Of a stretch of DNA of 64,000 nt, positions 5,231 to 35,740 are shown piece after piece. Location: positions 1 through 64,000 of IMG/VR virus record IMGVR_UViG_3300042562_001598; one strand, written 5' to 3'. Both the position numbers and the translations under genes were made by a program. The notes under the pieces are model-generated. The model was not told where the DNA came from. It saw nothing but the letters and a program-made list of their open reading frames with translations, and did no database searches. This DNA comes from a virus. The stretch's first letter is position 1, and each line of letters opens with the position of its first letter.

Positions 5231-6346
5231 TTAGATTACATAGATTTGTCTTGGCATAGCACGGAATTTTAGTTGTTTATTTAGATTTTCCGCTAATAAT
5301 GCTTCTTTCTCCATAACTTTTTCAGGACGAAGACGCTCCAATCGTAATTTCAATTCCTCTTCAAGTTTAGTTTGTTCATCTTTACCTTCAGTTAATAAAC
5401 TTTGATAATCCATAGTTAATTCAGAATCCGGTGTTTTGATAGCTCCGCTAAATTTACCTCTTACTCTACCTAAAGTCTGTTTAACATATGCTGTAAACCA
5501 TCTACGAACCCATACTTGAGCTGGGTTATTAAGTTCAGACCAAGCTACTTCTGCGATTGGTACATCAGATGGTAACTTAACAATTTCAGGATTATTTTTT
5601 AAACAAGCATCTCTATCTGCAGGACCAACATCATAGTACCAATAGTGTACTTTTCCACGCATTAATGTTCCATTTCCGAAGTCAAATTTACCCCCAGGTG
5701 TATTCATTAAGTGTATGGCTTTTTTACCATCAGGAAGAGCTGTAACGCGGTATGTAAGGTCACCACCAATTATTCTTCGTTGTATATTAATTTCTTGCAT
5801 TCTAAGAAGCATATCAAAGGCTGGCATCATAAAGTACGACCCTGACATACCCATTTGGGCAAATCCGGCACTACCACCAAGACCTGCTCCACCCATTCCT
5901 CCAAAAGACCAAGGGTCAAAGATAAGGTTATTAAGTGATGATGGTGTAAACCAAAGTAGTTCGTTTAATTCTCTATTTGCGGGAATTTCGTAAATTTGTT
6001 GGTTTTCTTGTAGTTGTATGAAATCTTTTTTAAGAACATCATCACCACCGGCTTGAAGACCTACGATTTTTGAGTATGCGTAAGTGTATCTTGTTTCATA
6101 ATCTAAACTTTTAGTTATGAAGGCTTTGGATAATGATTGTGTATCAAGGTTTAGATTATTAAGGGCGGTCCATTGAGATTCAATTAACCAATCTTGAACG
6201 AATTGGGAGTAATCACCGATAGATAATTCTAATAAACTATCCATCATTTCGTCTTCAATTTCAATTGAACGAACTGGTGCTCCTAATAAGTGTTTAATTC
6301 TTGTGTATAACTTACTTCTTTCGGGTTCTTGAATTATTATTGACAT
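5231..6346 (-). CDS. probable virion structural protein (neck/connector-like)
   Basis: This 371-residue protein has a helical N-terminus with acidic clusters (residues 20-60), a Gly/Met-rich linker near residues 148-170, a mixed middle domain, and a charged coiled-coil-like C-terminus (about 318-355) ending in a basic tail. The segment with Trp-x-Arg-Arg-Trp-Phe-Thr and Leu-Gly-Arg-Val-Arg-Gly-Lys-Phe is of the type seen in head-tail connector or neck proteins of T4-like marine phages. I cannot tie it to a named T4 gene with certainty; gp13-like is the best guess. It lies in a minus-strand run with genes bearing capsid-targeting-like leaders. The start ATG follows the upstream stop by 12 bases. 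Confidence 0.5.
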   Translation of the reverse strand: MSIIIQEPERSKLYTRIKHLLGAPVRSIEIEDEMMDSLLELSIGDYSQFVQDWLIESQWTALNNLNLDTQSLSKAFITKSLDYETRYTYAYSKIVGLQAGGDDVLKKDFIQLQENQQIYEIPANRELNELLWFTPSSLNNLIFDPWSFGGMGGAGLGGSAGFAQMGMSGSYFMMPAFDMLLRMQEINIQRRIIGGDLTYRVTALPDGKKAIHLMNTPGGKFDFGNGTLMRGKVHYWYYDVGPADRDACLKNNPEIVKLPSDVPIAEVAWSELNNPAQVWVRRWFTAYVKQTLGRVRGKFSGAIKTPDSELTMDYQSLLTEGKDEQTKLEEELKLRLERLRPEKVMEKEALLAENLNKQLKFRAMPRQIYVI

Positions 6347-6358
6347 AATGATATTTTA

Positions 6359-7489
6359 TTAATAAATATCGTTAAGTTCATAAATAATTTTTTCTCTTTG
6401 AGTAGGTTTAATTTTTATTGGTGTTAAGATTGGACTATTAGGTGTGTATTTATAAGCGAGAACATCACTACCTTGTTTAATTCTGTATCTTATAGCTAGT
6501 CTATGTTCACTAGAACCTCTTTGTCCTGCGTTAGACCAATACAATTCAATATCTTCAATATTAATAATTGTGTAGTTATCCAATATAATACCTGATAAAT
6601 TTTTCTTAATTTTTTCTAAAAAGTCTGTATGATTTTCATTAATCCAAACAAAAATATCGTCAATGATATGATTATAAAGGTTAATGTATTCGGGTTTTAA
6701 TTTACCTAATTCACCTTGTTTAAATATTGAGAAAAATTCTGATAAATAACTATCTGCTGCAAAGTTTATTTTTTTAACTTCAAATAGTTCTCCCTCATTA
6801 AATATTTTTCTACCATTCTCTAAAGTTAAATTTTTAATACTTTTTAAATCGGCTTTAATTGGAGGTGTTTCTAAAATAGAAGCTTCAATACATTTTTTAA
6901 TATTGGTAATTATTGATTCATAAGTTTCATCACCACTTTGTATTAATTTTATTAAATCAAAAAAACTTTCTTTAGTTTCTAAATCGCATTTATATTTTAA
7001 TTCTAATTTAGTTCTATAAGGTATAAAAACATCTCCAACAAAACTATCTTCGTATTCGGAATATTCTTTATTACGAACAGATTTTAGGATGTTTTCTAAA
7101 TCATCTTCATTAGTAGTGTCATCTAAATTTTTTAAATTCTGACGTGTTTTAGTATTATTAAATTTTGGGTCGTTGATAAAATCCGAAATAGTGTTTAGGT
7201 AAGATACGGTATTACTACTGTTTAAAGAAAGATTAATAATTTTAGGTAAGATACCTGATTTTTTCCAAGTAAAAAAATTAAATAAGTTTTCAACACTTTT
7301 ATTTAACGATGTTAATTCGTCACCTTTTATCTTTTTACTAAAATCATATAATTTACAATAAGGTGTATCTGTATTATTTTTAGTTTTTTTACATAATGAA
7401 TAAATATAGTTTAATGGTTCATCAGGGAATAGACTTCCCTGATTTGCTATTAATCTTTTATATTGTGATTGACTTATTAAAACTTTCAT
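6359..7489 (-). CDS. hypothetical protein, leader-bearing
   Basis: This 376-residue protein begins MKVLISQSQYKRLI, similar to the MKIIITE leaders of genes at 10739, 11154 and 11542 but without a glutamate at the cleavage position. The middle is helical and charged, and the C-terminal 100 residues alternate strands with an Asn-Ala-Gly-Gln-Arg-Gly-Ser-Ser-Glu-His motif. No family is recognised. It lies between the PD-(D/E)XK-like protein and the probable neck protein with short gaps (12 bases each side), so the three are one transcription unit. A TATTTATT sequence lies close before the ATG in gene sense and could be a weak late promoter. Confidence 0.5.
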   Translation of the reverse strand: MKVLISQSQYKRLIANQGSLFPDEPLNYIYSLCKKTKNNTDTPYCKLYDFSKKIKGDELTSLNKSVENLFNFFTWKKSGILPKIINLSLNSSNTVSYLNTISDFINDPKFNNTKTRQNLKNLDDTTNEDDLENILKSVRNKEYSEYEDSFVGDVFIPYRTKLELKYKCDLETKESFFDLIKLIQSGDETYESIITNIKKCIEASILETPPIKADLKSIKNLTLENGRKIFNEGELFEVKKINFAADSYLSEFFSIFKQGELGKLKPEYINLYNHIIDDIFVWINENHTDFLEKIKKNLSGIILDNYTIINIEDIELYWSNAGQRGSSEHRLAIRYRIKQGSDVLAYKYTPNSPILTPIKIKPTQREKIIYELNDIY

Positions 7490-7501
7490 AATAAATAAAT
7501 A

Positions 7502-8380
7502 TTATGTAATATCAAATTTTCTATCCTTTTTATTAAATACATAATTACCATCAACAATTTTTGTGTTTTGGTTGTCAAATATTAATATATTTTTACCACC
7601 ATTACTAAATTTAGAAAAAATCATTAAATCTGTGTAATAAGGTTTAACATTAGCGGTATTATATATAGTAATGGTGTCATCTTCTTCATTATATTGACTT
7701 CTACCGAAAGGTTTTATTTGTGCGGTATACGTCTTAGGGTATATGGTTAATTCACAATCAACACCTTTAAGAGCGTCTTTATCATTACCTATTTCTGCTA
7801 CGCTTACAACATTTTCATCTTTAAATATTTGTTTTAACACTTTTATTGTGTCATCTTCTGTTTTAGCTCCAGTTCCGGTTGTTCTACTAGTTATTTTAAT
7901 TATTTTGTTAAAAGTTGACGAATTTGGGTTAAAAATTCTAGTTTTATATTCGTCAATAACATTAAGGAATTTTTTAGTTTGTTCAATTTGTTCTTTTGGT
8001 GTCACACCCAATATTTGTATTTCAGGTCTTGACTGACTTCTTAACACTTTATTAACATCATTTAATAAAACACAAAAACAACTATAATTTGTATTAATAA
8101 AATTAAGACCGGAACGACCTTTTTTCTCTAAATCATAAATACCGGATAATTGTCCAGGTCCATATTGATTTGCTTGATAATAGTTGTCCGGAAAAACTTC
8201 CATTAACATTCTATCAATTTCATTCGTAAACATTTTTTTAACTTGTGGGTTTGAGTTGAAAACAAAACGAAATTTTTCATCTAATTCTCTGCTACATTTT
8301 TCGGATGAATTATCACCGGCGGTTGAATTATATTTAATTTGTTCTGTAATATTTTGGGCTTTAGCTTCTATAATTTTCAT
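7502..8380 (-). CDS. PD-(D/E)XK nuclease-like protein with leader
   Basis: This 292-residue protein starts with a short leader (MKIIEAKAQNITE) ending in Ile-Thr-Glu. Its C-terminal half carries the pattern of a PD-(D/E)XK nuclease: Glu175 in a helix after Gly-Ala-Lys-Thr, Asp208 in Gly-Val-Asp, and Gln221-Ile-Lys223 on the next strand, with a basic Pro-Phe-Gly-Arg after it. The Q-x-K form of the last motif is known in several nucleases of this fold. The N-terminal half (residues 25-150) is helical and unknown, with Cys101 and Cys103 close together. If the leader is a capsid-targeting sequence, the protein could be packaged and injected to attack host or rival DNA. Nuclease assignment is by motif only. 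Confidence 0.5.
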   Translation of the reverse strand: MKIIEAKAQNITEQIKYNSTAGDNSSEKCSRELDEKFRFVFNSNPQVKKMFTNEIDRMLMEVFPDNYYQANQYGPGQLSGIYDLEKKGRSGLNFINTNYSCFCVLLNDVNKVLRSQSRPEIQILGVTPKEQIEQTKKFLNVIDEYKTRIFNPNSSTFNKIIKITSRTTGTGAKTEDDTIKVLKQIFKDENVVSVAEIGNDKDALKGVDCELTIYPKTYTAQIKPFGRSQYNEEDDTITIYNTANVKPYYTDLMIFSKFSNGGKNILIFDNQNTKIVDGNYVFNKKDRKFDIT

Positions 8381-8405
8381 AATAATTTTTATTTTAATAA
8401 ATAGT

Positions 8406-10166
8406 TTATCTTAACGAATTAATTTTGTTCATCATATTTGCGATGATATCGCCTTTATCTATATTATCACCCATTACGGTGTCAATAACATTCTTTTTAT
8501 TTGATAACATGTCGTAAATTACACCCTCAATACTGTTGTCAAAAATCGGGTAGTACACTGATACGGAGTTTTTCTGACCATATCTATAAGACCTATCTTC
8601 GGCTTGTTGATGATGCGCTGGAACAAAGGATAAGTCATTCATTATAACCGCTTCTCCAGCTGTTAGTGTTATTCCAGCTCCAGCAGCAATTAAATTCCCA
8701 ACAAAAACTTTAATCTTATCATTATTCTGAAATTCATCAACCGCGTATTGTCTTTTTGGGTTGGAACAACTTCCGTCCAAATATACAGATTGTTTTCCAA
8801 AGTGTTCATGTATTTTTTGTAAAACTCCGGTAAAGTTGGTAAAGATAATAACTTTTTTATCTTGGTCAATAATATTTTGTGCTAATTCTATCGTATGTTT
8901 TATTTTTTCTTCGGCAATAACTTGTCTTACCTTCATTAACATACTGAATTGTACGGTTAATGAACTTGATTCCTCTTTTTTCTTATCATACCAATCATAA
9001 TACTCACCCATTAAACCCATATATTGTTTTGAGTTTAATCTCAAATAAACTGGTGTTATGATTTTATCTGGTAAATCTAAAACTTCGGTTTTTAATCTTC
9101 TTAAAAATTGTCTTGAGGTTCTGTCTCTTAATTCCTCTAAATTTGATGCTCCGGTTACATTCCATATTTTACGATTTCCAGCTTTGAATTGGTATCCTTG
9201 GCAATATCTAATAGCGTAAGCCATCCAGTTTTGAGCGACAGGACTTTCTATCAATGAGAGTAAATTAAAATAGTTCATTGGACGAGAAGTCATTGGTGTT
9301 CCGGTTAATAACCAAAGGTATTTACTCTGTTTTACAAAACTATTAACTAATTTAGTTCTTTGAGCTTGACCATTAGAAATATAATGAGCTTCGTCTATTA
9401 TTATTAAGTCAAAGCTAGCTTTTGTTATTAAAGAATTCTCAATATCTTTTAAATCATAAAAGTTTTTAAGGATATCATAATTAATGATTACAAAATCGTG
9501 TTCAGTTGAAAAGTTTTTACCTTCACAAATATATACACTTCTATCCGAATAATTTTCAATTTCTCGTTGCCAATTTATTTTTAATGATGCGGGACAAATA
9601 ATTAATATTTTTTTAACATTAACCTCTAAAGCTGCGATAACCGCTGAGGTCGTTTTTCCTACACCCATGTCGTCTGCTAATATAAACCTTTTTGTTCCTG
9701 ATAGTTTCTCAATTGCGAGTTTTTGATGGTCAAGTGGTGGTCTATGTGAATACTTAGAATAATCAATTACAATTTCTTCGGTTGTGTGGGTTTTTAATAA
9801 CGCACCCTTTGGTAACCAAAAGTCGTGAATGGTCTCACCTGACAATATTTTACCCCAAATATGATAAGCCTTATCTTTCTCAACAAGTAATTTTTCAACC
9901 CAAACTTGTTCGGGTATTTTAACAAGTAATTTTTCGTCGGCTAATTTTTTACCGAAGTAAGGGTCTAAGTCAACCCATTTTTTAGCGACTTTAGGGGTTA
10001 CTTCGTGATAATTAATTATATATTCTGATTGAGAACGAGTTGGAAAGAATTTTTTATTATTTTCCTTTTGGGTTTTCATTTTAAGAATATGGTTATTTGC
10101 TCCCGAATAGGTTTCAAGTATTTCCAACGCTCGTTGTTCTAATAATGGAGTATTTGTATTTTCCAA
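8406..10166 (-). CDS. SNF2-family DNA helicase/translocase
   Basis: This 586-residue protein is a superfamily 2 ATPase of the SNF2 type. Visible motifs are Walker A DDMGVGKT (165-172), DEAH (258-261), motif III Thr-Gly-Thr-Pro (288-291) and motif VI Q521-AED-R525-SY-R528-YGQ, whose Arg-x-Gly-Gln ending is typical of SNF2 proteins. Its length equals T4 UvsW (587), and it probably does the same job of remodelling recombination or replication forks and helping replication switch mode. It is the first gene of the minus-strand run. No in-frame ATG is found upstream; the start is TTG at 10166, and the next ATG is residue 30. It is divergent from the gene at 10227, with about 60 AT-rich bases between them. 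Confidence 0.85.
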   Translation of the reverse strand: MENTNTPLLEQRALEILETYSGANNHILKMKTQKENNKKFFPTRSQSEYIINYHEVTPKVAKKWVDLDPYFGKKLADEKLLVKIPEQVWVEKLLVEKDKAYHIWGKILSGETIHDFWLPKGALLKTHTTEEIVIDYSKYSHRPPLDHQKLAIEKLSGTKRFILADDMGVGKTTSAVIAALEVNVKKILIICPASLKINWQREIENYSDRSVYICEGKNFSTEHDFVIINYDILKNFYDLKDIENSLITKASFDLIIIDEAHYISNGQAQRTKLVNSFVKQSKYLWLLTGTPMTSRPMNYFNLLSLIESPVAQNWMAYAIRYCQGYQFKAGNRKIWNVTGASNLEELRDRTSRQFLRRLKTEVLDLPDKIITPVYLRLNSKQYMGLMGEYYDWYDKKKEESSSLTVQFSMLMKVRQVIAEEKIKHTIELAQNIIDQDKKVIIFTNFTGVLQKIHEHFGKQSVYLDGSCSNPKRQYAVDEFQNNDKIKVFVGNLIAAGAGITLTAGEAVIMNDLSFVPAHHQQAEDRSYRYGQKNSVSVYYPIFDNSIEGVIYDMLSNKKNVIDTVMGDNIDKGDIIANMMNKINSLR

Positions 10167-10201
10167 AGTTATAATTTTAATTAAAAAATAAGTAATAAAT
10201 G

Positions 10202-10211
10202 GATATTTATA
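10202..10211 (+). promoter_or_regulatory. late-type promoter GATATTTATA
   Basis: GATATTTATA followed by AATAAAAAA lies 15 bases before the ATG at 10227, in the divergent gap with the helicase gene. Confidence 0.55.
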
Positions 10212-10226
10212 AATAAAAAATTAATT

Positions 10227-10742
10227 ATGTCAAACAATAAAATGCCTATTTCTAGAATTGGTAAATTTTTTGGTGAGGAAGACTATAATTTGGAGCTTTC
10301 ATTTGGTGAGGAATACTTGTATAATGATATGAACTTTACTTTAGTTCTTTATCGTGTTGATAAGTTAAAAACCAAAAAGGATGATGTCTATGGTGAAGCG
10401 GTATCTGACGCGATAACATTTCTACCTCCTGTTGAGTTTAAAGGACTAGTTCAAGTAATGGTACCAGAGAATAAATATTTGGGAACATCTAAAATAGGTC
10501 AATTTGAACCAGGAAATTTACGAGTTTCAGTGTATCAAAGACATTTGGATGAGTTAGAGGTTGAAATTAATTATGGTGATTATATTGGTTATATGGAGAG
10601 TGAGACAGTTATGAGATATTATGTTGTAAACAATGATGGTCGTGTAACTTCAGATAATAAACACACTTATGGTGGGTACAAAGCGTTTTATAGAACAATA
10701 ATGGCATCACCGGTTACTAATGATGAATTCAGAGGATTATGA
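10227..10742 (+). CDS. probable neck protein (gp14-like)
   Basis: This 171-residue protein is mainly beta-stranded. The segment Asp-Val-Tyr-Gly-Glu-Ala followed by a Phe-Leu-Pro-Pro element, a Gly-Gln-Phe-Glu turn, and a late Gly-Asp-Tyr-Ile strand has the same order as T4-type neck protein gp14 and head-closure proteins, where an Ile-Phe-Gly-Glu-Asp motif precedes the beta core. Such proteins close the filled head and bind the tail. It is shorter than T4 gp14 (256). The stop overlaps the next ATG as ATGA, so the acidic paralogue downstream is coupled to it. A gp15-like gene follows 1.3 kb later, which agrees with a neck/tail-completion region. Assignment is tentative. Confidence 0.45.
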   Translation: MSNNKMPISRIGKFFGEEDYNLELSFGEEYLYNDMNFTLVLYRVDKLKTKKDDVYGEAVSDAITFLPPVEFKGLVQVMVPENKYLGTSKIGQFEPGNLRVSVYQRHLDELEVEINYGDYIGYMESETVMRYYVVNNDGRVTSDNKHTYGGYKAFYRTIMASPVTNDEFRGL

Positions 10743-11122
10743 AAATTATAATAACAGAAAACAAATTATTTAACTCCATTTATGGTTATTTGGAAAAAAC
10801 ATTCATTGAGGAGGACGAATTACATTGGACGTATGCTGAAGATTTAAGTGACGAATATGGTAACGAGGATGAAAATCTTATAATTTTTTATAGAGGTGAT
10901 TGGGAAGGTGAAGACTTTAGTGATATAGTTTTTGCTTATTACGCTAAAGATTATTTTGATGATAGTCCAGCTAATTCTCATAATAGAAGTCAAGCTCCAA
11001 TGTTAATGGTTACGAAATATTACGACCTTAATGATATGTTTGCTCAGCATTGGATTGAACCTATGAAAAAGTGGTTTGAGGGTAAATTTAATTTACCTGT
11101 TAAAAGTATAACATCTTACTAA
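10739..11122 (+). CDS. acidic leader-bearing protein A (paralogue pair)
   Basis: This 127-residue protein starts with MKIIITE, a leader ending in Ile-Thr-Glu, and then a helix (NKLFNSI). The body is strongly acidic, with about 25 Asp/Glu against 11 Lys/Arg, and rich in Tyr and Trp. It ends in a helix containing Glu-Pro-Met-Lys-Lys-Trp-Phe. The next gene (11154-11537) is a same-length paralogue with the first 14 residues identical. Small acidic proteins of phages can mimic DNA and block host nucleases, and T4 injects small internal proteins with cleaved leaders; both comparisons are inference here. The ATG overlaps the preceding stop codon by four bases. Confidence 0.6.
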   Translation: MKIIITENKLFNSIYGYLEKTFIEEDELHWTYAEDLSDEYGNEDENLIIFYRGDWEGEDFSDIVFAYYAKDYFDDSPANSHNRSQAPMLMVTKYYDLNDMFAQHWIEPMKKWFEGKFNLPVKSITSY

Positions 11123-11124
11123 CT

Positions 11125-11156
11125 AAAATATAAAAATATAAAAATATAAAAATATG
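11125..11156 (+). repeat. 8-bp tandem repeat spanning a start codon
   Basis: Four units of AAAATATA, the last changed to AAAATATG, lead straight into the ATG of the second acidic paralogue. The unit supplies the A-rich leader used in Bacteroidota instead of a Shine-Dalgarno sequence, and could vary in length by slippage. Confidence 0.7.
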
Positions 11157-11537
11157 AAAATAATTATTACAGAGAATAAGTTATTTAATTCCATTACAAA
11201 GTATTTGGAAAATACCTACAATTCTGAAGATGATTTAAACTGGGTGTATGACGAATTGTATGATTATGTGAATGATGTATATGATGACCCAATCAATGAA
11301 AATATAAGACTTTATTTTAATGGTTGGCTTGAAGGTGACCATAGTAATGTAATTTTCGCATATTATGATAAAGATTATTGGGATGATGCACCATCAAGAG
11401 CTGAAGCGCCAAAGTTAGTTGTTATGGAATATGATGAACTTACTGAAATGTTTAGTGAATATTGGAAAGAACCAATGAAAAAATGGTTTGAGGAAAAATT
11501 TGGTTTACCGGTAACTTCTGTTACACGAGATGTGTAA
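11154..11537 (+). CDS. acidic leader-bearing protein B (paralogue pair)
   Basis: This 127-residue protein is the tandem paralogue of the one at 10739-11122. The first 14 residues are identical (MKIIITENKLFNSI), the middle has diverged while staying acidic and Tyr/Trp-rich, and the C-terminal block with Glu-Pro-Met-Lys-Lys-Trp-Phe-Glu and Leu-Pro-Val is conserved. Conservation of both ends with a drifting middle suggests the ends do shared work (targeting and folding) and the middle meets a changing partner. An 8-bp tandem repeat forms its leader. A third ORF with the same MKIIITE start follows immediately. No known family is recognised. Confidence 0.6.
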   Translation: MKIIITENKLFNSITKYLENTYNSEDDLNWVYDELYDYVNDVYDDPINENIRLYFNGWLEGDHSNVIFAYYDKDYWDDAPSRAEAPKLVVMEYDELTEMFSEYWKEPMKKWFEEKFGLPVTSVTRDV

Positions 11538-11541
11538 AAAT

Positions 11542-11631
11542 ATGAAAATCATAATAACTGAAATACAAAAAAGATTACTTGAAAATATAAACAAAACAAG
11601 GGTTATTTGTTATAATTGTGGTTGGTTATGA
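11542..11631 (+). pseudogene. truncated MKIIITE-leader ORF with half a zinc ribbon
   Basis: This 29-codon ORF begins with the same MKIIITE leader as its two neighbours, continues with a helix (IQKRLLENINK) and stops just after Cys-Tyr-Asn-Cys-Gly-Trp. A Cys-xx-Cys-Gly-Trp element normally opens a zinc ribbon that needs a second Cys pair; here a TGA interrupts it. The ORF is therefore probably the remnant of a longer leader-bearing zinc-ribbon protein, or a very short coupling peptide. Its stop overlaps the next ATG as ATGA (11628-11631), so it may now serve to couple translation of the following gene. Confidence 0.5.
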
Positions 11632-12026
11632 TAATGAATAATGAGGATAACCATATAGACAAAAAAGTAATGGTTTATTATAACTTAAATAAACACACAT
11701 TTTCAGTTACTTATAAAAATATACTAATTACATACGCAGATTATATTAAATTAACGGATGTTGAATTTAGAGTTAGACCGGGAGGTAGAGAAAGAGTATT
11801 AAAAGAAAAAAGAAAAAATGTTCACGCATTTGTAATCGGAACACTAAAGGAATATTGTAAATACCCTTGTGAGAGTTTACCAAATGACATAAATGACGAC
11901 ATTGTTACCTACGACCCTTACAAGTATAATTCTTATGTGATGAAAGACACCGAAGAACCAATATACAATTCCGATGAGGTTGAGATGATAAATTCAAGAA
12001 ACAAAATATTTATAACAAAACGATAA
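11628..12026 (+). CDS. conserved hypothetical phage protein
   Basis: This 132-residue protein starts at the ATG that overlaps the stop of the preceding short ORF; a TTG 12 bases earlier is less likely. The first 65 residues have the pattern of a small conserved phage protein: Val-Tyr-Tyr-Asn-Leu-Asn-Lys-His, then Phe-Ser-Val, then Val-Arg-Pro-Gly-Gly-Arg-Glu-Arg-Val-Leu-Lys-Glu and Asn-Val-His-Ala-Phe-Val-Ile-Gly. I have a memory of this pattern in other large phages but know no function for it. The C-terminal half is a Tyr/Pro-rich, low-complexity tail. It precedes the gp15-like gene by one base. Confidence 0.55.
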   Translation: MIMNNEDNHIDKKVMVYYNLNKHTFSVTYKNILITYADYIKLTDVEFRVRPGGRERVLKEKRKNVHAFVIGTLKEYCKYPCESLPNDINDDIVTYDPYKYNSYVMKDTEEPIYNSDEVEMINSRNKIFITKR

Positions 12027-12027
12027 A

Positions 12028-13065
12028 ATGCCATTACCTAAAAAAAATAAAAAACATATTCCTTTAACTTATACTAAAACTCTATACCCTAGACGACAAG
12101 AATTAGTTGATAAGATAAATGAACACGGAACTTATTTACCTAAATCAATACTACACGCCGATTTAGATGGGGGTTTTTTGTCATTTGTTAAAAATGAATT
12201 GAAAACGGTTGTAGATGGAAAAACCATTCCTATGGTTGATATTTTAATGACTACTCAAAATTGGTCTCAATTTACTGAAACTTGGGATTTTCAAAATATA
12301 GATAAAAATGTTGAACCACCACTTATAACTGTGGTTAGAATTCCTGAAGTTAAATTTGGTACAAACCCAGCTTTACTATACAACATACCAAATAGAAAAC
12401 AATATTTCTACGCGCAAGTGCCAACTTGGGATGGTCAACGACAAGGCATGGATATCTATAAAATCCCACAACCAGTTCCTGTTGATATTTCTTACACTGT
12501 TAAAATTATTTGTAATAGGATGCGAGAATTAAATGAGTTTAATAAGAATATTATTGAGACATTTGCTTCAAGACAAGCGTACACAACAATTAAAGGTCAT
12601 TACATACCAATTATTATGGGTAATATTTCTGACGAATCTGTTATGGATATTGAAAAGAGAAAGTATTACATTCAAAGTTACGAATTTACCGTTTTAGGAT
12701 TTCTTATTGATGAAAATGAATTTGAGGTTTCTCCGGCAATAACAAGAGTATTACAAGTTGTTGAGTTTGATACTAAAATTAAAAAAAGGAGTGTTAAACC
12801 AAAGGATGTGCAATCAACCACATTTTCAATTTTTACATATCCTATTGGTGTTGTAACTTTTACACAAGTATTTAATTATACTACAAATATTACTTTGGGT
12901 GATTTATTGAATATTAATAGTTTTAATGTGTATATTAATGGTTATTTTTATGGTTCAGATTTATCTGAAATATTAATTAATACAAATGACTCATTAAAGA
13001 TAGACATTATTAAAAAAGATGTTAATAAAGAAAGTACTATTAAATTAAATAATGTGTTAATTTAA
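12028..13065 (+). CDS. tail terminator/sheath stabiliser (gp15-like)
   Basis: This 345-residue protein resembles T4 gp15, which caps the tail tube and sheath and joins the neck. The shared order is a central segment ending Tyr-Asn-Ile-Pro-Asn-Arg-Lys, a Pro-Val-Pro-Val-Asp-Ile-Ser-Tyr strand (residues about 147-155), a helix with repeated Asn (Arg-Met-Arg-Glu-Leu-Asn-Glu-Phe-Asn), an Ile-Pro-Ile-Ile-Met-Gly strand, then Arg-Lys-Tyr-Tyr-Ile-Gln and a Leu-Gly-Phe-Leu-Ile-Asp strand. It is longer than T4 gp15 (272) because of a C-terminal beta-rich extension from about residue 250. It lies just before the sheath gene, as expected. It converges with the small minus-strand RHH gene and overlaps it by four bases. 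Confidence 0.55.
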   Translation: MPLPKKNKKHIPLTYTKTLYPRRQELVDKINEHGTYLPKSILHADLDGGFLSFVKNELKTVVDGKTIPMVDILMTTQNWSQFTETWDFQNIDKNVEPPLITVVRIPEVKFGTNPALLYNIPNRKQYFYAQVPTWDGQRQGMDIYKIPQPVPVDISYTVKIICNRMRELNEFNKNIIETFASRQAYTTIKGHYIPIIMGNISDESVMDIEKRKYYIQSYEFTVLGFLIDENEFEVSPAITRVLQVVEFDTKIKKRSVKPKDVQSTTFSIFTYPIGVVTFTQVFNYTTNITLGDLLNINSFNVYINGYFYGSDLSEILINTNDSLKIDIIKKDVNKESTIKLNNVLI

Positions 13066-13226
13066 TTTTCACCATAGATATCTTTTTTATCTTTACAAGT
13101 TTCAATAATTAAATTTTCTAAAAACTTGTAAATTTTAATACCTCTCTTTTCACAATATAGTTTTAATATATTATGAGCATCTTCCGATATTTTTAAGTTT
13201 TTTATTTTTTTATTATTTTCTTCCAT
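13062..13226 (-). CDS. small ribbon-helix-helix-like protein
   Basis: This 54-residue protein (MEENNKKIKNLKISEDAHNI onwards) has a short strand followed by two helices, like CopG/Arc family regulators. The open frame extends 36 codons further upstream, but that part is hydrophobic and unlike a coding sequence. The start at 13226 is chosen because a TATTTATA element ends four bases before it, the same close spacing as for the other two small RHH genes. Unlike those, no HNH gene follows; it may be a cassette remnant or a regulator of the divergent sheath gene. Its 3' end overlaps the gp15-like gene by four bases. Confidence 0.55.
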   Translation of the reverse strand: MEENNKKIKNLKISEDAHNILKLYCEKRGIKIYKFLENLIIETCKDKKDIYGEN

Positions 13227-13230
13227 AGTA

Positions 13231-13358: not shown

Positions 13359-13368
13359 AATATTTATA
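13359..13368 (+). promoter_or_regulatory. late-type promoter AATATTTATA
   Basis: AATATTTATATATAA lies about 37 bases before the tail sheath ATG and is followed by an A-rich leader with no Shine-Dalgarno sequence. A copy of AAAGGTAGAAA repeated in tandem lies about 75 bases upstream. Confidence 0.55.
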
Positions 13369-17050: not shown

Positions 17051-17058
17051 TATTTATA
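17051..17058 (+). promoter_or_regulatory. late-type promoter TATTTATA
   Basis: GTATATTTATAAGTATG places the element three bases before the ATG at 17062. It comes directly after the sheath terminator, so the HAD-like gene must be transcribed from here. Confidence 0.55.
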
Positions 17059-17061
17059 AGT

Positions 17062-17883
17062 ATGAGACTTAAAAACAAATTAAAAGAGGGTATTGATGAT
17101 TATGGAACTCCTGATATGAAGTATTATGCTTTTGATTGGGATGATAACATTGTTACAATGCCAACAAAAATCATTCTTAAAGATGAGGATGGTGATGAAG
17201 TGGGGATGTCAACACAAGATTTCGCTGAATATAGAACTGAAGTTGGAAAAGAACCTTTTGAATATCAAGGTCATACTATAGTAGGTTTTGCAGAATTACC
17301 TTTTAGAAATTTTACAGTAACTGGAGATAAAGATTTCATTATTGACGCTATGTTAGCTAAAATAGGACCAGCTTGGCCTGATTTTGTTGAGGCAATTAAT
17401 AATGGTTCAATATTCTCAATAGTTACTGCTAGAGGTCATACACCTTCGGTATTAAAAGAAGCGTGTTATAATTATATAGTGTCAAATTTTAACGGAATTG
17501 ATTCTAACGAATTAGTTAGAAATTTAGAAAAATATAGACATTTAGCTGACGAAGAACAACTATCTAAACGAGAAATGATTAAAGAATATTTGGATTTATG
17601 TAAATTTTATCCTGTGACTTATGGTGAAGGTTCAGCGACTAATCCGGAAGAAGGAAAAATTAAAGCATTAAAAGAATTTATTTCTTATGTTAAAGAAGTG
17701 TCTAATTCATTACAAAAGAAAGCTTTATTAAAAAATAAAATAAGTAATCACTTTTTACCAACTATTGGATTTTCAGATGATGATATTAGAAATGTTGAAA
17801 CAGTTAAAAAACATTTTGAGAAAGAACCTGATAATATTTTAAAAACATATTTAACATCAACAGGAACTAAAAAAGAATATTAA
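17062..17883 (+). CDS. HAD-like hydrolase with leader
   Basis: This 273-residue protein carries HAD-superfamily motif I as Asp25-Trp-Asp27-Asp-Asn29 on a predicted strand and motif II as Val-Thr122-Ala-Arg-Gly125. A lysine in the Gly-Lys-Ile-Lys segment near residue 206 could be motif III. It would be a phosphatase, perhaps acting on nucleic-acid ends or nucleotides; the substrate cannot be read from sequence. The Thr of motif I is replaced by Asn, which is unusual. Residues 1-9 (MRLKNKLKE) form a basic leader ending in Leu-Lys-Glu, so processing by a prohead protease would leave the enzyme intact. It stands between sheath and tube genes under its own promoter. Confidence 0.65.
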   Translation: MRLKNKLKEGIDDYGTPDMKYYAFDWDDNIVTMPTKIILKDEDGDEVGMSTQDFAEYRTEVGKEPFEYQGHTIVGFAELPFRNFTVTGDKDFIIDAMLAKIGPAWPDFVEAINNGSIFSIVTARGHTPSVLKEACYNYIVSNFNGIDSNELVRNLEKYRHLADEEQLSKREMIKEYLDLCKFYPVTYGEGSATNPEEGKIKALKEFISYVKEVSNSLQKKALLKNKISNHFLPTIGFSDDDIRNVETVKKHFEKEPDNILKTYLTSTGTKKEY

Positions 17884-18556: not shown

Positions 18557-20137
18557 ATGGATTTTTCTTTTTTTACAACCGATAACAAATCAGGGTATAA
18601 AACCACGGAAAAGTGGTTATCTAAAAATTACCCCCAAGTTTACAACTCAATTATTGAGTATACTACTAAATTAGACCTTGAGATGTCTTTTAAGGAGAAA
18701 ATATGGTTTTATTATAATAAGTTAACGGAGAGACCTAAATGTTTAACCTGTGGGAGTGATATTTCTTTTAGAAATAGATTTGACAAACCATATGGGGATT
18801 TTTGTTCATTAATTTGTATTAACGACAATAAGGGTGAGATGATGAAACGACAAAGTAAAACCTTCCAACAAAAATACGGTGTTGATTTTTACCCTAAACA
18901 TAATGACTTTGTTAAAAAACAAAAAGAGACTAAATTATTAAAATATGGTGATGAAAATTTTAATAATGTTGAAAAAAGTAAAATAACTAGACTTGAGAAA
19001 TATGGTGATGAGAATTACAATAATATTGACAAAACCAAAAAAACTTGTTTAGAATTATATGGTGATGAAAATTACAGTAAGAGTAATCATTATAAAAATA
19101 AAATTAATGAAACTTTTAAGAGTTTATATCCGGATGTTAATTTTATTGATATAAAAAAAGAAAAAGTTGTTATAACTTGTGTTAATTGTGGAAAAAATAG
19201 TGAGTTTTCTAAACAACTTTTATATGAAAGACATAAAAGGGGTTATGACATATGTGTTGAGTGTAACCCTATAGGGTTTTCAAGTAGAAGTGGATATGAG
19301 AATGAAATATGTGATTTTTTAGATAGTCTCAATGTGAATTACGAAACAAATAAAAAAATTACAAATAAAAGAACTGAAATTGATATTTTTTTACCGGAAT
19401 ATAACTTGGGTATTGAAATGAATGGTGTTTATTGGCATAATGAATTATTTAAGACTATGGGTTATCATCTACAAAAGACTAATGAATGTAATGAGATTGG
19501 GATTAAATTAATTCATATTTTTGAGGATGAATGGTTATATAAACAAGATATTGTAAAATCTATTTTATTGAGTAAATTAAATAAAATACCAAATAGACTT
19601 TATGGTAGAAAGTGTGAAATAAAAGAAATTACTTCTAAAGAATCAAAAATATTTTTAGAGAATAACCATATTCAAGGGAATGTTAATTCTAAAGTTAAAA
19701 TTGGTTTATTTTACGAATCCCAATTAGTATCATTAATGACATTCTCTAAAGGGCGAATTTTAATGGGCGGTAAAGATACTGAATGGGAACTAAACAGATT
19801 TTGTAATTTGACTAATCATAATATTATTGGTGCGGCGTCCAGGTTAATGAGTTTTTTTGTGAAAAATTACAACCCAAATAAAGTTGTTTCTTATTCCGAT
19901 ATTAGAATTTTTGATGGGAGTATGTATAAGAAATTAAACTTTCAGTATGTGTCAAAATCAAAACCTAACTATTGGTATGTTATAAATGGTATTAGACGAC
20001 ATAGATTTGGATTTAGGAAATCAATATTAATTAAAGATGGTTATGATAAAAACATGACTGAAAAACAAATAATGTTAGATAGGAAAATTTACAGAATATA
20101 TGATTGTGGTAATATTAGATGGGAATTTAATATTTAA
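18557..20137 (+). CDS. homing endonuclease, PD-(D/E)XK type with C-terminal GNAT-like domain
   Basis: This 526-residue protein looks like a free-standing mobile endonuclease. Residues 60-80 contain a Cys-xx-Cys zinc element (Cys-Leu-Thr-Cys-Gly) with a second Cys pair shortly after. Residues about 127-178 hold three repeats of Lys-Tyr-Gly-Asp-Glu-Asn about 19 residues apart, probably DNA-contacting. Another Cys-xx-Cys-Gly ribbon follows near residue 215. The nuclease core at about 272-295 has Glu-Ile-Asp-Ile-Phe-Leu-Pro then Gly-Ile-Glu-Met-Asn-Gly and Tyr-Trp-His, as in Vsr-like PD-(D/E)XK homing enzymes. Residues about 350-490 have strand-helix order and Gly-Ala-Ala-Ser-Arg-Leu, like Mom/GNAT acetyltransferases. 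It is inserted between the tube and chaperone genes; the neighbours are intact. Confidence 0.65.
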   Translation: MDFSFFTTDNKSGYKTTEKWLSKNYPQVYNSIIEYTTKLDLEMSFKEKIWFYYNKLTERPKCLTCGSDISFRNRFDKPYGDFCSLICINDNKGEMMKRQSKTFQQKYGVDFYPKHNDFVKKQKETKLLKYGDENFNNVEKSKITRLEKYGDENYNNIDKTKKTCLELYGDENYSKSNHYKNKINETFKSLYPDVNFIDIKKEKVVITCVNCGKNSEFSKQLLYERHKRGYDICVECNPIGFSSRSGYENEICDFLDSLNVNYETNKKITNKRTEIDIFLPEYNLGIEMNGVYWHNELFKTMGYHLQKTNECNEIGIKLIHIFEDEWLYKQDIVKSILLSKLNKIPNRLYGRKCEIKEITSKESKIFLENNHIQGNVNSKVKIGLFYESQLVSLMTFSKGRILMGGKDTEWELNRFCNLTNHNIIGAASRLMSFFVKNYNPNKVVSYSDIRIFDGSMYKKLNFQYVSKSKPNYWYVINGIRRHRFGFRKSILIKDGYDKNMTEKQIMLDRKIYRIYDCGNIRWEFNI

Positions 20138-28123: not shown

Positions 28124-28125
28124 AC

Positions 28126-31400: not shown

Positions 31401-34400
31401 ATACACCATATTTTATTAATTCAATACAACAGGGTGTTAATAATTATTTATTAGATGTTGAGTATCCTTATAAGTCAGCGGCTTATTTATTCATTAATAG
31501 TTTACCTTTAGCTACTTTAAGAGAAAAATATAAAACATATGAAAATGAATCATCAAATGATTTAGATTATATTTTCGCAACATTAAAGAAATTTGGTGCA
31601 ATACATAAATTACCTTACGCTTGGGTATTAAAGATTGGTTCAATATGGCATAGATATAAAACATATGTTAATACTAATGTTGATATTATTGATACTTCTT
31701 GGTCAGGTTTTAGTTATACTAAAAACTTTTCACCTATAGCTAATTCTCCGGAGACAAATTATTCGTTAAATTTCAATAATGGGTTTTATGATATTGTTTT
31801 AGAGAAAAACACTACATTAGGTACTGAAGTTTCAACAGTTATTAATACAGGATTTTATCCTAAATTAATAAATGATTTTAATATTTTTTATCAAGGGTTT
31901 GAAGTTTATACTGGTTATACTAATTCTGACATTCAGAATGGATTCAATTCTGGGGTTACATTAAATTATGTACCATCAGCAATTATTGATTCAAAAGAAG
32001 GGTTTGATAGTAAAAATAAAGGTAGAGATTTAAGAATTGTACCTTGGTCTGTTTTTGTTAATACTAGAGATGGTATTTCATCATTTATTATGCCATCACA
32101 AGGGTCGTTAATTAATCAAACTAAAAACGAATGTTTCACTAATGAAGGTAAGTTAGAGTTTGAAGTTACTGGTAATACCGCAATGTATAACGGTTCGGTT
32201 CGTTTATTTTGGTCAGCGCCTAATTATGGTTACTTTGATGTTAATAAGGTTGTTAAACCATTACCGCATCAATATATGAAAAATGTTTCACCAACATCAT
32301 ATTCTGTATTTGGATTTTCAGTTTCAACACAAGAAAATTATTCAATTAATGGTCAAAGTAGTGGATACACTTCTATGAATGAGATTTTTTCTGTATTTGA
32401 AAAAGATATATTAGATAAGTTTGAAACGGAATTTTTAGATTTTTCTAAATCAATATATGATTATCAAAGTACGGACATTTCAAATACTGATAGTAATTCC
32501 GAAAAATCATTTAAGAATTTTCAGATGTTGATGAGAGATTTAATGAAAGTCCCTAAAAGTAAAGGTATTGACGGTAAAGAAATCATTACTGATATGCAAA
32601 AACAACAGATAACGAGTCTTAGTAATGGGTTGAATCAATTTTTAAATTATGATGTAGTTTTCAAATATGGTAATCCTGCTAATTTTGATAAAAGGTTATT
32701 CTATAGTTTTTCAAGTCCTAAAATTACTAACCCATATACTTGGGATAAGTATTCAATAACAACACCAAATACTTTACCAACTAGTGGTGGAAGTGTTACT
32801 TTATTACAATCTAAAACTAATTCTCCTGATGTTTGGAAAACTTTGGAAACTTATGTTGGGTTTTCAGATGTTAGTGGTCTTACTTATAGTAATAACGGTT
32901 CTTGTATTACTGATTTTTTTGTTGATTGTAATGTAGCGTTTAATACTGAAAATATAATTAATTTAGCACCAATTATTAAAATATATGCGACTCAAAAATT
33001 AAAAGATAAAACTTTAAATTATTCTAAATTTATAAAATTAATGGATAATTATATTTTATCGGTTAAGAACTTCCAAGATAAAACCTTTAATAATTTAATG
33101 ATTAGATTACGACAATCATTACCTGATGTTGGTAATGCTTCTAAACCTAATTTTGAAACTGTTTTAGAAGGTACTCAAACTAAAGTTGAATTATGGGAAT
33201 CGTTTAAAGCTATTAATGATAAATGGATTTCCGGTGGAGATTTTAAAACTAAAACATTATTTGAGGATGTGTTATTATTGGATAGAGCTAGTAGAAATGT
33301 AGGTAACGAGATTTTAATTGATGTTTATAAATTAAAGGACTTATTGACAAATATACCTGAAAAAGTGAGTATGTTAAGTTTTGTTCAGACTATATTGGTT
33401 GAGAATAATTTTGTTGTTATGAATTTACCATCCTATGTTAATTTTTATGGTGTTCAAGACGCGGTAAAAAATCCAATACCAAAAGCTGAAGGGACTTTAG
33501 ATTTTGCAAATACAATGTTTGGTGCGTTTATGAATGTTGATTATAGAGAATCTTCGGCTAAATTAGTTTGTTTTTACGCAAGTAAACCAAGTGAACATGT
33601 TGAAATGAAAAACAATGTTGATTATAGATTCAAAAATGATGCGTTTGACTTAAGAAAAAATGACAATCCATTAGTTGAGAATCAAATGGGTAAAAATGAT
33701 TGGGATAAGTCAAATAAAGTTGTTGGGTTTAATGTTGACATTGGTCCTCAAAATCAATCTATATTCTATGGTTTCCAAGTTGACCAAAACCCTGGTTTAG
33801 CCACAGCAGAATCTTTAGAAGTTTTAAATCAAATGGCTAATTTATACGGCAATCGTGGAGGTGCAAGTCAAAATGTGTCATTATATAATTTATATAAAAA
33901 CAGAAGTTATACTTGTACAGTTTCTATGATGGGTAATGCTATGATACAACCGACAATGTATTTCAATTTAAGACATGTCCCTATGTTTAGTGGCCCTTAT
34001 TTAATTCAAAAAGTTACTCACGCTATAAATCCAGGTAGTTTTGAAACCATTATAACGGGTATAAGACAACCAACAGCGTCATTACCTAAAATAAATGATT
34101 ATATTCAATCATTAAAAACTAACTTATTGAAAACTATTATTGATAAAAATAAACAAGATAGAAAAAATAAAGAGGAGTCTATTAAATCAAATAGTAAAGG
34201 TGATGTTATAAAACAAAAAGCGGATACATATAATGATGCTATGAATAAGGGTGGAAATACTTCAGCTTCAGTTGCTAATTGTTATCCAGCTAATACTGGG
34301 GGAACTCAAAATATTGGGTATAGTGAATATGTTGTTGTTACAGCACCTAAAAGTACTAAAGAAAGTTTTAAAACAATTGCTGATTTAATTAGTTCTAAAA

Positions 34401-34819
34401 CTTCAGATAAAAAATTACGATACATTATTTTCACTACATTACATTTGGCTTCTGGAACTTTACAACAATTTGAAAGTAATGAAAACAATTTTGCGGGTAT
34501 TAAACTAAATGAATATTGGGGTGATGGAAGTAATAGTTATTTAAAAGGAAACCAATATTATTGTTCTGCGGGTAATCAACCATTCGCATTATTTAATACA
34601 CCTACAGACAATATTAATTTTTTAATTAGTAGATGGTCAAAAAGAGTTGGTAATATTAAAAGTATTACTAAAGAAGAATTAACTAAATTTTGGATTATAA
34701 ATGAGGATGCAACTCAAAAACTTCCTAATGTTTATTCTACTATGGATAAGACACAATTAACTAATATTGAAAATGAAGTACAAAAAGCTATTGATGTTGC
34801 ATACACTTTTTTCAGATAA
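28442..34819 (+). CDS. giant baseplate hub protein with C-terminal glucosaminidase-like domain
   Basis: At 2125 residues this is the largest protein in the window. Residues about 150-256 resemble gp27-type hub proteins: Phe-Leu-Pro-Ser-Ile-Ser-Val-Thr-Leu, Asn-Leu-Pro-Tyr-Pro-Met-Phe-Thr-Leu-Thr-Ile-Lys-Gly-Tyr-Tyr-Gly-Lys, then a Tyr/Phe-rich beta strand run. The middle 1500 residues are Asn/Ser/Tyr-rich beta modules. Residues about 1730-1900 include a second hub-like segment with Gln-Pro-Thr-Met-Tyr-Phe-Asn-Leu. Residues about 1970-2070 read like a peptidoglycan glucosaminidase fold (Asn-Asn-Phe-Ala-Gly-Ile-Lys-Leu, later Phe-Asn-Thr-Pro and Phe-Leu-Ile-Ser-Arg-Trp), though the catalytic Glu is not certain. 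It would puncture and digest the cell wall. The ATG overlaps the gp53-like gene. Confidence 0.7.
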   Translation: MVGSSENILVEFDYNNITIIDPNKVIDSDGKVKERNVKMEDLVMYANLECKLVPRTKLIYGISNNNDVQNISIANINFLNQGGKTLLDNSYTDELTGKGVLQGLGVNQVKQDKISTSDKPDDYFIKQTLMSNGKVGAVDNGLLGITSININQGMDFLPSISVTLEDIKGRAMFEAGDNSPYAAFFNLPYPMFTLTIKGYYGKAVKLSLMLQTFTSRYDNVNGNFKIDLKFYTYKYTMLSEVTMAALLATPHMYQSRLKISTKTTTGAVNPTEPTKDVVVERGFQKIKEVYSEYKSKGLIPDDFPEITLVQLRNNIENFIKNILDSFTKQNLDPLSYIEEYQESLRKYGGEVFLYGGTDSWFGEYMDQENFFIKKDGSKLYTFKTEFQTGQKNTDAISKLNGIIKKYNELLKNDKTLGENGSYTIDGKVISSKVSFDIAYGTFTKDIREVDINLLETYLLRTKTKSVTEDSVEFKAFVLKLQTDNYLNNIRIRDAMGNKQTGFQWFAFEGKDNFEGVLNKISKVAGDFTEQIQNELTKALSTLLQSKANGIGFVPTIRNVLAVVFASGEGFLRLMDDVHTQAWELRNNDTRKNVIFDTTIANASQDNLTSGDVKNQPVFPWPQMIVGTSGEDGSEKYTITYPGDKEVINKTKAYLSHIWPEVEFLEEFVRGYTERDSDPTPSTPKNNELNDIQRVSFTPIEFPVDNSVYGNKEEVKFFYEIFERMFMTSNYSGLIRSSEDTTDTDVITSIIAEGENINLTKSLSDENPFLIKKLKEFNLSSGNFEVLLRHISNDGTGNSWQNFIRGIFNTSYIKNKVNNSSFTFIDKNVFTNSNVTQPLISLASEDKMVNFISEKTTTNSYNFTDLYPFTDLQWDKSNLSNGSSIGSVEQTFNTTNVLVYNTNVKTISNFKQITDTDVKRPITNFLFKDVKTPQYTEDIYNGVVNNINNLNSFYSSRYYNTQLPTEGNLRYFNYSGGVSANQTVSILNTPYFINSIQQGVNNYLLDVEYPYKSAAYLFINSLPLATLREKYKTYENESSNDLDYIFATLKKFGAIHKLPYAWVLKIGSIWHRYKTYVNTNVDIIDTSWSGFSYTKNFSPIANSPETNYSLNFNNGFYDIVLEKNTTLGTEVSTVINTGFYPKLINDFNIFYQGFEVYTGYTNSDIQNGFNSGVTLNYVPSAIIDSKEGFDSKNKGRDLRIVPWSVFVNTRDGISSFIMPSQGSLINQTKNECFTNEGKLEFEVTGNTAMYNGSVRLFWSAPNYGYFDVNKVVKPLPHQYMKNVSPTSYSVFGFSVSTQENYSINGQSSGYTSMNEIFSVFEKDILDKFETEFLDFSKSIYDYQSTDISNTDSNSEKSFKNFQMLMRDLMKVPKSKGIDGKEIITDMQKQQITSLSNGLNQFLNYDVVFKYGNPANFDKRLFYSFSSPKITNPYTWDKYSITTPNTLPTSGGSVTLLQSKTNSPDVWKTLETYVGFSDVSGLTYSNNGSCITDFFVDCNVAFNTENIINLAPIIKIYATQKLKDKTLNYSKFIKLMDNYILSVKNFQDKTFNNLMIRLRQSLPDVGNASKPNFETVLEGTQTKVELWESFKAINDKWISGGDFKTKTLFEDVLLLDRASRNVGNEILIDVYKLKDLLTNIPEKVSMLSFVQTILVENNFVVMNLPSYVNFYGVQDAVKNPIPKAEGTLDFANTMFGAFMNVDYRESSAKLVCFYASKPSEHVEMKNNVDYRFKNDAFDLRKNDNPLVENQMGKNDWDKSNKVVGFNVDIGPQNQSIFYGFQVDQNPGLATAESLEVLNQMANLYGNRGGASQNVSLYNLYKNRSYTCTVSMMGNAMIQPTMYFNLRHVPMFSGPYLIQKVTHAINPGSFETIITGIRQPTASLPKINDYIQSLKTNLLKTIIDKNKQDRKNKEESIKSNSKGDVIKQKADTYNDAMNKGGNTSASVANCYPANTGGTQNIGYSEYVVVTAPKSTKESFKTIADLISSKTSDKKLRYIIFTTLHLASGTLQQFESNENNFAGIKLNEYWGDGSNSYLKGNQYYCSAGNQPFALFNTPTDNINFLISRWSKRVGNIKSITKEELTKFWIINEDATQKLPNVYSTMDKTQLTNIENEVQKAIDVAYTFFR

Positions 34820-34823
34820 CGCA

Positions 34824-34831
34824 TATTTATA
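34824..34831 (+). promoter_or_regulatory. late-type promoter TATTTATA
   Basis: GCATATTTATATATAAAACACACATTATG places the element 15 bases before the ATG at 34847, just after the hub gene stop. Confidence 0.5.
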
Positions 34832-34846
34832 TATAAAACACACATT

Positions 34847-35071
34847 ATGAGTACAAAATTAATATTAGATAATTATTTAGGTAAAAATACCAGACATTCA
34901 GAAAAAGATTTGGGTAATGGTTCTAAACAGGTATGTGATTTAGACACAGGAGATTGTTATACTATCAGAATGAAAGATGGTTTAATTGAAAGAGTTGATA
35001 ACACTTTAAATACAAATAAAAAAATCCAAGTTGAAACTTTAACTGGTGTAAAACAATTATTAAACGGATAA
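34847..35071 (+). CDS. small hypothetical protein
   Basis: This 74-residue protein has no recognised family. Its middle (Ser-Lys-Gln-Val-Cys-Asp-Leu-Asp-Thr-Gly-Asp-Cys-Tyr-Thr-Ile) is a compact beta hairpin with two cysteines five residues apart, followed by Asp-Gly-Leu-Ile-Glu-Arg-Val and a C-terminal helix. The size and the two close Cys fit a small virion or metal-binding module, but no function follows from this. It has its own late-type promoter and is followed after three bases by the Pro/Ala-rich protein at 35075. Confidence 0.55.
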   Translation: MSTKLILDNYLGKNTRHSEKDLGNGSKQVCDLDTGDCYTIRMKDGLIERVDNTLNTNKKIQVETLTGVKQLLNG

Positions 35072-35074
35072 ATT

Positions 35075-35740
35075 ATGAAAAAAATTGACGAAAAGATATT
35101 AGAAGAAATTGCTAGATATAATTCAATTAATTCTTATATTACAGAACAGGAAACGGCTTTACCCCCAGTTCCAGGTGAAGAAGAATTAGCTTTACCACCG
35201 GCTCCGGGTATGGAAGGTGTTCCACCTGTTGACCCTAATTTAGCTCCTGCGGCACCTGCGGCTCCTGAAACGGCTGCTGTTGATGTTGCGACTGACCCAG
35301 ATGTAGAAAAAGTTGAAGGTGATGGGACTGAAGAAGGTACAACAGAAGAAATGGACATTACTGATTTAGTTAAGTCTCAAAAAAATATTGAGAGTAAACA
35401 GGAAGAGTTCTTTAATACTTTGTTTAATCATTTGAATGATTTAGATAGTAAATTAGGTGAAATGGATAACATTGTTAATACATTGAATAATTTAGAAGCT
35501 AAAATTGAAAAACTTAGACCTAAAACTGCTGAAGAAAAATTAGAATTAAGAAGTTTAGATTCTGGTCCATATACGACTAAGTTATCTGATTTCTTTAATG
35601 ACAAACAAGATGATTTTGAGAAAACTGGTAAAGAGTATGTTTTAACGACAGATGAGGTTCAAGATTATTCACCAACTGAGATAAAAAAAACTTTTAGAAA
35701 CTTTGGAGATGAGACTAACTCATTTACAAACATAAGATAA
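35075..35740 (+). CDS. Pro/Ala-rich coiled-coil virion-type protein with leader
   Basis: This 221-residue protein begins MKKIDEKILEEIARYNSI, a charged helix with several [L/I]-x-E sites, and Ile-Thr-Glu at residues 22-24. Residues 28-75 are Pro/Ala/Glu-rich (repeated Leu-Pro-Pro-x-Pro-Gly) and disordered. Residues about 95-150 form a coiled coil with Leu/Ile heptads (Asn-Thr-Leu-Asn-Asn-Leu-Glu-Ala-Lys-Ile). The C-terminus is acidic and helical. The make-up resembles scaffold-like or internal head proteins of large phages. It closes the tail operon, before a strong UUCG terminator. Function is inferred only from composition. Confidence 0.55.
   Translation: MKKIDEKILEEIARYNSINSYITEQETALPPVPGEEELALPPAPGMEGVPPVDPNLAPAAPAAPETAAVDVATDPDVEKVEGDGTEEGTTEEMDITDLVKSQKNIESKQEEFFNTLFNHLNDLDSKLGEMDNIVNTLNNLEAKIEKLRPKTAEEKLELRSLDSGPYTTKLSDFFNDKQDDFEKTGKEYVLTTDEVQDYSPTEIKKTFRNFGDETNSFTNIR

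Follow-up and report, generated by a model that had tools for sequence, protein, structure and literature searches.

Putative removable leaders on dozens of unrelated proteins of a huge T4-like phage and its uncultured relatives

Why should proteins that are otherwise unalike begin with the same kind of short leader? This question is raised by IMG/VR virus record IMGVR_UViG_3300042562_001598, of which bases 1-64000 (the window) were analysed together with the remainder of the 282,192-base record (labelled G000 in coordinates outside the window). The window harbors tail, neck and replication genes of T4-like type. The initial annotation noted short N-terminal leaders ending in [L/I]-x-E on several of its proteins and proposed that these proteins are packaged in the head, trimmed by a gp21-like protease and injected. 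It further proposed searching the rest of the genome for a prohead protease and more leaders, and comparing the motif count with shuffled N-termini. In T4, internal proteins enter the prohead through a capsid-targeting sequence (CTS) of about 10 residues and gp21 cuts after L/I-X-E; an Asp at the cut site blocks processing, and the CTS can carry foreign proteins in, as stated in passages of PMC9026906 and PMC7697877. Our results suggest that leaders of this kind act as removable tags on dozens of unrelated proteins in this huge T4-like phage and in hundreds of its uncultured relatives. The record has a guanine-cytosine content of ~30% and Shine-Dalgarno sites are rare in it; as both features fit Bacteroidota, the host is probably a member of that phylum.

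The motif at N-termini and the leader classes

The excess of the motif was measured on the genes called in 184 kb of the record, counting [LI].E that ends at residues 5-20. The count was 61 in 182 genes; shuffled N-termini gave 39.9 +/- 5.0 and internal windows 34 +/- 6. In a held-out 93 kb that was unused in discovery, 47 of 116 genes carried it against 26.4 expected, and none of 1000 shuffles reached 47. The narrower form [LI][TSGAN]E occurred there 29 times against 7.8 expected. In both sets the control motifs [LI].D, [VF].E, [AGS].E and E.[LI] stayed at background level; [LI].N and [LI].K were marginally above background in the 184-kb test.

A count of this kind depends on composition. In an AT-rich genome the proteins contain much Lys, Ile and Glu, [LI].E will often fall close to a start, and the leaders could be a product of chance. 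Summed over the 298 genes, composition alone would give about 66 N-terminal [LI].E where 108 were seen, and the window gene at 4874, NrdB and the neck protein gene are such cases. Composition-preserving shuffles, however, never match the held-out count, the controls show no comparable excess, and the surplus comes to ~41 genes. Chance is an extremely unlikely source of the leaders; it is refuted for the leader set and still true of single genes.

The motif also emerged when it was not preset. We fetched 240 loci around capsid, sheath and neck genes from IMG/VR, which together with the record's own genes gave 2681 proteins in 375 families. When all 400 residue pairs at that spacing were scanned over the first 30 residues, with one protein per family, IxE ranked first and LxE second; the Glu peaked at residues 7-9, and the signal was not seen in inner windows. 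Bacteroides phage crAss001 had no [LI].E excess (20/87 vs 17.7). The distant 484-kb phage LR756508 has leader-like families of its own, but there [LI].D and E.[LI] exceed background as well (z ~3), so that the genome-wide test is nonspecific in this phage and was set aside. Two arrays of LR756508 (L543:27696-31405 and L544:29494-37887) carry a leader MxLKDLLxE and an LxRG(S/T) motif; a guess that they are ADP-ribosyltransferases, likened to T4 Alt, found no Pfam confirmation, and PHROGs assigns them to families of unknown function.

Leaders ending in [L/I]-x-E are common to at least ~150 unrelated proteins of related phages, and they fall into several classes. Class C was searched in IMG/VR with a DNA pattern for MKK[IV][IV]RLTExDL, which leaves residues 13 onward outside the pattern, and yielded at least 138 distinct proteins. 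After removal of the first 30 residues, their bodies formed at least 103 clusters without detectable mutual similarity. Among the matches listed, the leader end, which had not been searched for, was [LI].E in 99 of 103 bodies and [VM].E in the other 4. In the same matches position 20 was Ile, Leu or Val, position 21 was free (2.6 bits), position 22 was Glu in 91% and never Asp, and conservation dropped from residue 23 towards the level of random sequence. The full form of the leader is MKK(I/V)(I/V)RLTESDLxRIVKRVIxE. Class D, MKxLIRKILxE, was found in IMG/VR on 50 mutually unrelated bodies, with Glu11 in 86% of them, a residue that the pattern did not demand. Class B, MKIIITE, had Glu7 in 33 of 41 unrelated bodies. 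Class A, MKNLFxIxEEEKNRILNLHxxATKRxYLxE, is carried mostly by genes around the capsid gene.

The codons of the leaders vary synonymously, and therefore selection acts on the peptide; a shared DNA element in its place was ruled out by this variation. A cellular origin of class C was also rejected: among 84,980 cellular genomes its pattern occurred in one metagenome-assembled genome only, on two short contigs that carry further tandem leader genes and look viral. Short-peptide tblastn of the leaders against phages and plasmids gave no matches, which says little because queries that short are insensitive. Two local arrangements were also observed. In L248:681-1109 a class C leader-like segment (KLTESDLTRLVIKEE) occurs again within the protein, which looks like a fusion of two units. 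At G000 160894-166707 there is an array of at least five MKIIITENQY paralogues of 149-209 residues, a local duplication burst of one leader protein.

Prohead protease, late-promoter-like element and the proposed pathway

Does the phage encode the enzyme that would cut such leaders? The search of the remaining genome found an S77 (gp21-type) prohead protease at 229325-229756 (PF03420, E 4.3e-25), with portal, acidic scaffold and gp23-type capsid genes as neighbours. The propeptide of the major capsid protein (MCP) ends in LINE, followed by A, at residue 59 in 78 of 78 relatives, with variable flanking residues; FLTE followed by A is its counterpart in T4 gp23. The S77 protease is present in 17 of 20 large contigs carrying class A or C leaders. 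The other three also have no gp23 capsid gene, and for this reason we regard them as fragments missing the head module. Between portal and protease, a protein of 239 residues (G000 227822-228541) has 11 [LI].E against 5 expected and may be a core protein that, as in T4, is cleaved into fragments.

The leader genes also share an upstream element. The 8-mer TATTTATA stands upstream of 42 genes, where 5.6 would be expected; it lies on the coding strand, typically ~25 bases before the start, and its reverse complement reads as the T4 late promoter TATAAATA. The form TATTTAT[AT] precedes the sheath, tube, gp25, portal, protease and scaffold genes and was absent before all eight replication or nucleotide genes checked. 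It precedes 17 of 34 leader genes, compared with 47 of the remaining 273 (P 5e-5). Among the class C matches listed from IMG/VR, 66 of 100 genes have it, vs 6.7 when shuffled. We read TATTTAT[AT] as a probable late promoter in this clade.

Most of the proteins behind the leaders are of unknown function. Outside the window, leader carriers of the record include an L,D-transpeptidase (YkuD, E 8.9e-7), a protein with a weak peptidoglycan-binding match and a DHH-like protein. At least one relative has an ADP-ribosyltransferase (PF18760, E 2.6e-17) behind the leader MKTFIRKILRE, and a relative has a CCA-adding enzyme behind MKNLIRKILKE. T4 Alt is an injected ADP-ribosyltransferase.

Taken together, we consider the leaders to be a much enlarged version of T4-type capsid targeting, and that the proteins would be packaged in the head, trimmed and injected, with a probability of about 0.8. 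The claim of the initial annotation that a gp21-like protease cuts after [L/I]-x-E is strongly supported at the level of sequence by the protease gene, the capsid propeptide, the held-out enrichment, the shared leaders and the promoter-like element. By analogy with T4 we infer binding to the core, cutting, packaging and injection. Many unrelated proteins would be made late in infection with one of several short leaders, and the leader would bind the prohead core, so that the protein becomes enclosed in the prohead. The S77 protease would then cut after [L/I]-x-E and free the mature protein inside the head, and the freed protein would enter the host together with the DNA. These steps would explain the shared leader and free body, the fixed P3 and P1 positions (Leu/Ile and Glu) around a free P2, and the absent Asp. 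They would also explain the loss of conservation past the cut, the element shared with virion genes and the co-occurrence with the protease.

Several points weigh against capsid targeting. No purpose for injection is obvious for the CCA-adding enzyme and DHH-type carriers, and no virion proteomics for the clade was found in the sources searched. The gene starts come from our own gene caller, the scaffold protein has no more [LI].E than expected from its composition, and the TerL, gp6 and MCP genes have no promoter-like element. The leaders also share little with the T4 CTS MKTYQEFIAE save K2 and the end motif; that sequence is not clearly a defining feature, because a third T4 internal protein also departs from it.

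The leader may instead be a removable docking tag for another late process, at the tail, a membrane or a replication compartment, with gp21-type cutting incidental or done by another Glu-specific protease. The possible cell-wall enzyme bodies (YkuD and peptidoglycan-binding) could serve lysis or the tail, and the proteomics search just mentioned is equally in keeping with this explanation. However, the end motif of the leaders is that of the capsid propeptide of the same phage and of the published gp21 rule, the S77 protease accompanies the leaders as described above, and the leader excess is absent from the tail-module genes (3/21). A docking tag of this sort is therefore unlikely.

Leader-bearing genes of the window

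Which window genes bear such leaders? The leaders of the genes at 390, 7502, 10739, 11154, 17062 and 35075 are supported by sequence comparison. The features are as follows.

390-1031, minus strand: leader-bearing protein, 213 residues, function unknown (open reading frame)
999-1031, minus strand: class D leader MKDLIRKILRE of gene 390-1031 (same leader on 50 unrelated bodies)
1038-1045, minus strand: late-promoter-like TATTTATA upstream of 390-1031
6359-7489, minus strand: protein with class B leader MKVLISQ, Gln for Glu in this phage (orthologues)
7502-8380, minus strand: leader-bearing PD-(D/E)XK-type nuclease-like protein (structure matches and motif)
8342-8380, minus strand: leader MKIIEAKAQNITE of gene 7502-8380 (orthologue N-termini)
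8396-8403, minus strand: late-promoter-like TATTTATT upstream of 7502-8380
10739-11122, plus strand: acidic protein with class B leader MKIIITE (orthologue N-termini)
11154-11537, plus strand: paralogue of 10739 with the same leader MKIIITE (55% identical)
11542-11631, plus strand: remnant, MKIIITE leader and zinc-ribbon stub in a stop-closed 29-codon open reading frame (three-frame translation)
11634-12026, plus strand: body gene of the 11542 remnant, PF25735, here leaderless (Pfam E 4e-28)
13361-13368, plus strand: the same late-promoter-like element before the tail sheath gene (comparison)
17051-17058, plus strand: late-promoter-like TATTTATA upstream of the HAD-like gene
17062-17088, plus strand: leader MRLKNKLKE of the HAD-like protein (orthologue leaders)
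17062-17883, plus strand: HAD-like protein between tail sheath and tail tube (motif YYAFDWDDN and position)
35075-35146, plus strand: two-site leader MKKIDEKILEE...SYITE of gene 35075-35740 (both sites kept in relative)

For these six genes the N-termini quoted in the initial annotation are in the sequence as listed. An orthologue of 390-1031 at 30% identity retains the leader as MRNLIRKILIE, and the protein has no Pfam match. The orthologues of 7502 have [LI].E within the first 20 residues in 33 of 47 distinct N-termini, with differing leaders. In the structure model of 7502, residues 1-27 have a predicted local distance difference test score (pLDDT) <50 and are disordered, and the body is folded. 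In structure comparison, its residues 167-292 match Hjc resolvases, I-Ssp6803I and restriction endonucleases with Z values up to 8.4; the Foldseek E was not significant. GxDCE ... QIK is invariant. For 10739, [LI].E is present in 39 of the 43 distinct N-termini among orthologues, and the first helix of the model begins at residue 7, that is, at the predicted cut. As 10739 and 11154 are paralogues, we count them once. A PDB search for the fold of this acidic pair gave no significant match. The sole relative found for 35075 (L259, 54% identity) retains both sites, as RILNE...KYIFE.

The HAD-like protein at 17062 is strongly supported as a leader carrier by its orthologues. Their leaders (25 distinct, variable in length and sequence) have Glu at P1 in 25 of 25 and Leu or Ile at P3 in 22 of 25, and three further orthologues have entirely different leaders, MSLYVKKLVREIITE, MNYSVLTRQIINEMINE and MRNRIIELLRE, on the same body. 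The HAD assignment is made from the motif, and Pfam yields no HAD match. These orthologues bear on a further explanation, in which the leaders would be a relic of descent or of gene-cassette recombination, a 5' coding segment copied with its promoter and a peptide without a role. Leaders and promoter-like element do travel together. Against this, the HAD body has swapped non-homologous leaders that each still have [LI].E, the leader codons vary synonymously, and class C keeps near-invariant P3 and P1 around a free P2; we consider a roleless relic very unlikely.

Other candidates were altered, broken or rejected. The protein at 6359 has the leader shape but Gln in place of Glu, as had been noticed; its orthologues retain the Glu (for example MKVLIRED and MKFIMSES). 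The MKIIITE at 11542 is in the sequence, but not as the start of an intact gene: a stop and a frame change separate the stub from the body gene at 11634-12026, and relatives have leader, zinc ribbon and body in one frame, or the body without leader. The zinc-ribbon module CDxCGWSWxLADGGNDPYxCHKCGHDN stands between leader and body in some PF25735-family members (11542-11631; L089:8092-8625) and is missing in others. The supposed leader of 4874-5224 ending in IGE was rejected, as relatives at 84-89% identity carry IGD and [LI].E occurs in only 11 of 62 distinct orthologue N-termini. The gene 5231-6346, which opened the interval first reported, encodes a head-tail adaptor-type neck protein with a conserved Pro right after I-x-E and is no leader protein. 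The motif in NrdB (41622) was taken as chance, and its orthologues lie outside the fetched loci.

Two pairs of other genes were also observed. Two similar HNH-like proteins (4056-4775 and 37960-38688), each after a ~50-codon MGRxK open reading frame, look like a mobile pair. Two long proteins related to each other, inserted beside the tail tube (18557-20137) and beside the capsid genes (G000 233559-235178), resemble homing endonucleases.

Meaning and comparison with known systems

For most huge-phage proteins no role is known. Should the leader be a mark of packaging in the head, one simple rule at the sequence level would give hundreds of candidate injected effectors acting in the first minutes of infection, probably aimed at host defences or at targets of host takeover. 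The leaders would also be ready-made tags to load chosen proteins into phage heads, and the internal-protein strategy of T4, known from few proteins, would be a main deployment route for accessory genes in very abundant environmental phages. We think it somewhat better than even that huge T4-like phages of Bacteroidota have a general cargo-loading system of this kind. In it, interchangeable cleavable leaders would serve tens of accessory proteins in each genome, out of hundreds of families with rapid turnover between phages (nucleases, ADP-ribosyltransferases, phosphatases, cell-wall enzymes and many unknown), and the leader alone would predict injected proteins.

Phage P1 DarA, DarB and related defence proteins are accessory proteins that are packaged in the head and injected; we know of no common short leader of such kind on them. 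DarA and Hdf are treated in passages of PMC12810830. In the giant phages phiKZ, 201phi2-1 and SPN3US, a gp21 homologue processes many head proteins after Glu, and these ejection proteins enter the cell, according to passages of PMC9026906 and PMC10052503. Processing after Glu by a gp21 homologue is likewise predicted here. PhiKZ differs from our leaders in its motif S/A-x-E and in propeptides that belong to the core set of the virus itself, and these passages describe no shared short leader of accessory proteins; [AGS].E, the comparable motif of the phiKZ/SPN3US type, is at background in G000.

The bS21-encoding Bacteroidetes jumbo phages (passages of PMC9723584) and other huge phages have T4-like head genes, genomes of 200-400 kb and Bacteroidota hosts, and probably belong to the same broad group. 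The passages searched in texts on related huge phages do not mention leaders or head-targeted cargo, and one such paper raises, in part of its text, the possible packaging of bS21 in the head. Among the papers listed in a literature search on "capsid targeting sequence", none joins the term with huge phages, an absence that is not proof.

The closest likeness is to T4 IPI, IPII, IPIII and Alt, with a short N-terminal leader on unrelated proteins, an L/I-x-E end, and an S77 protease and a matching capsid propeptide in the genome, the cutting being predicted here. As in Alt, the leader stands on an ADP-ribosyltransferase (PF18760) in at least one relative. Unlike T4, the leaders have other sequences and lengths of 7, 11, 22 and ~30 residues, double sites are frequent, and the host is probably a member of the Bacteroidota. 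In contrast to the handful in T4, there are ~40 leader candidates above chance in one genome, and one class occurs on at least 103 unrelated bodies. We judge that the principle is known from T4, and that this phage group differs from it in the sequences and lengths of the leaders, in the frequent double sites, in how many carriers a genome has and in how large the pool is.

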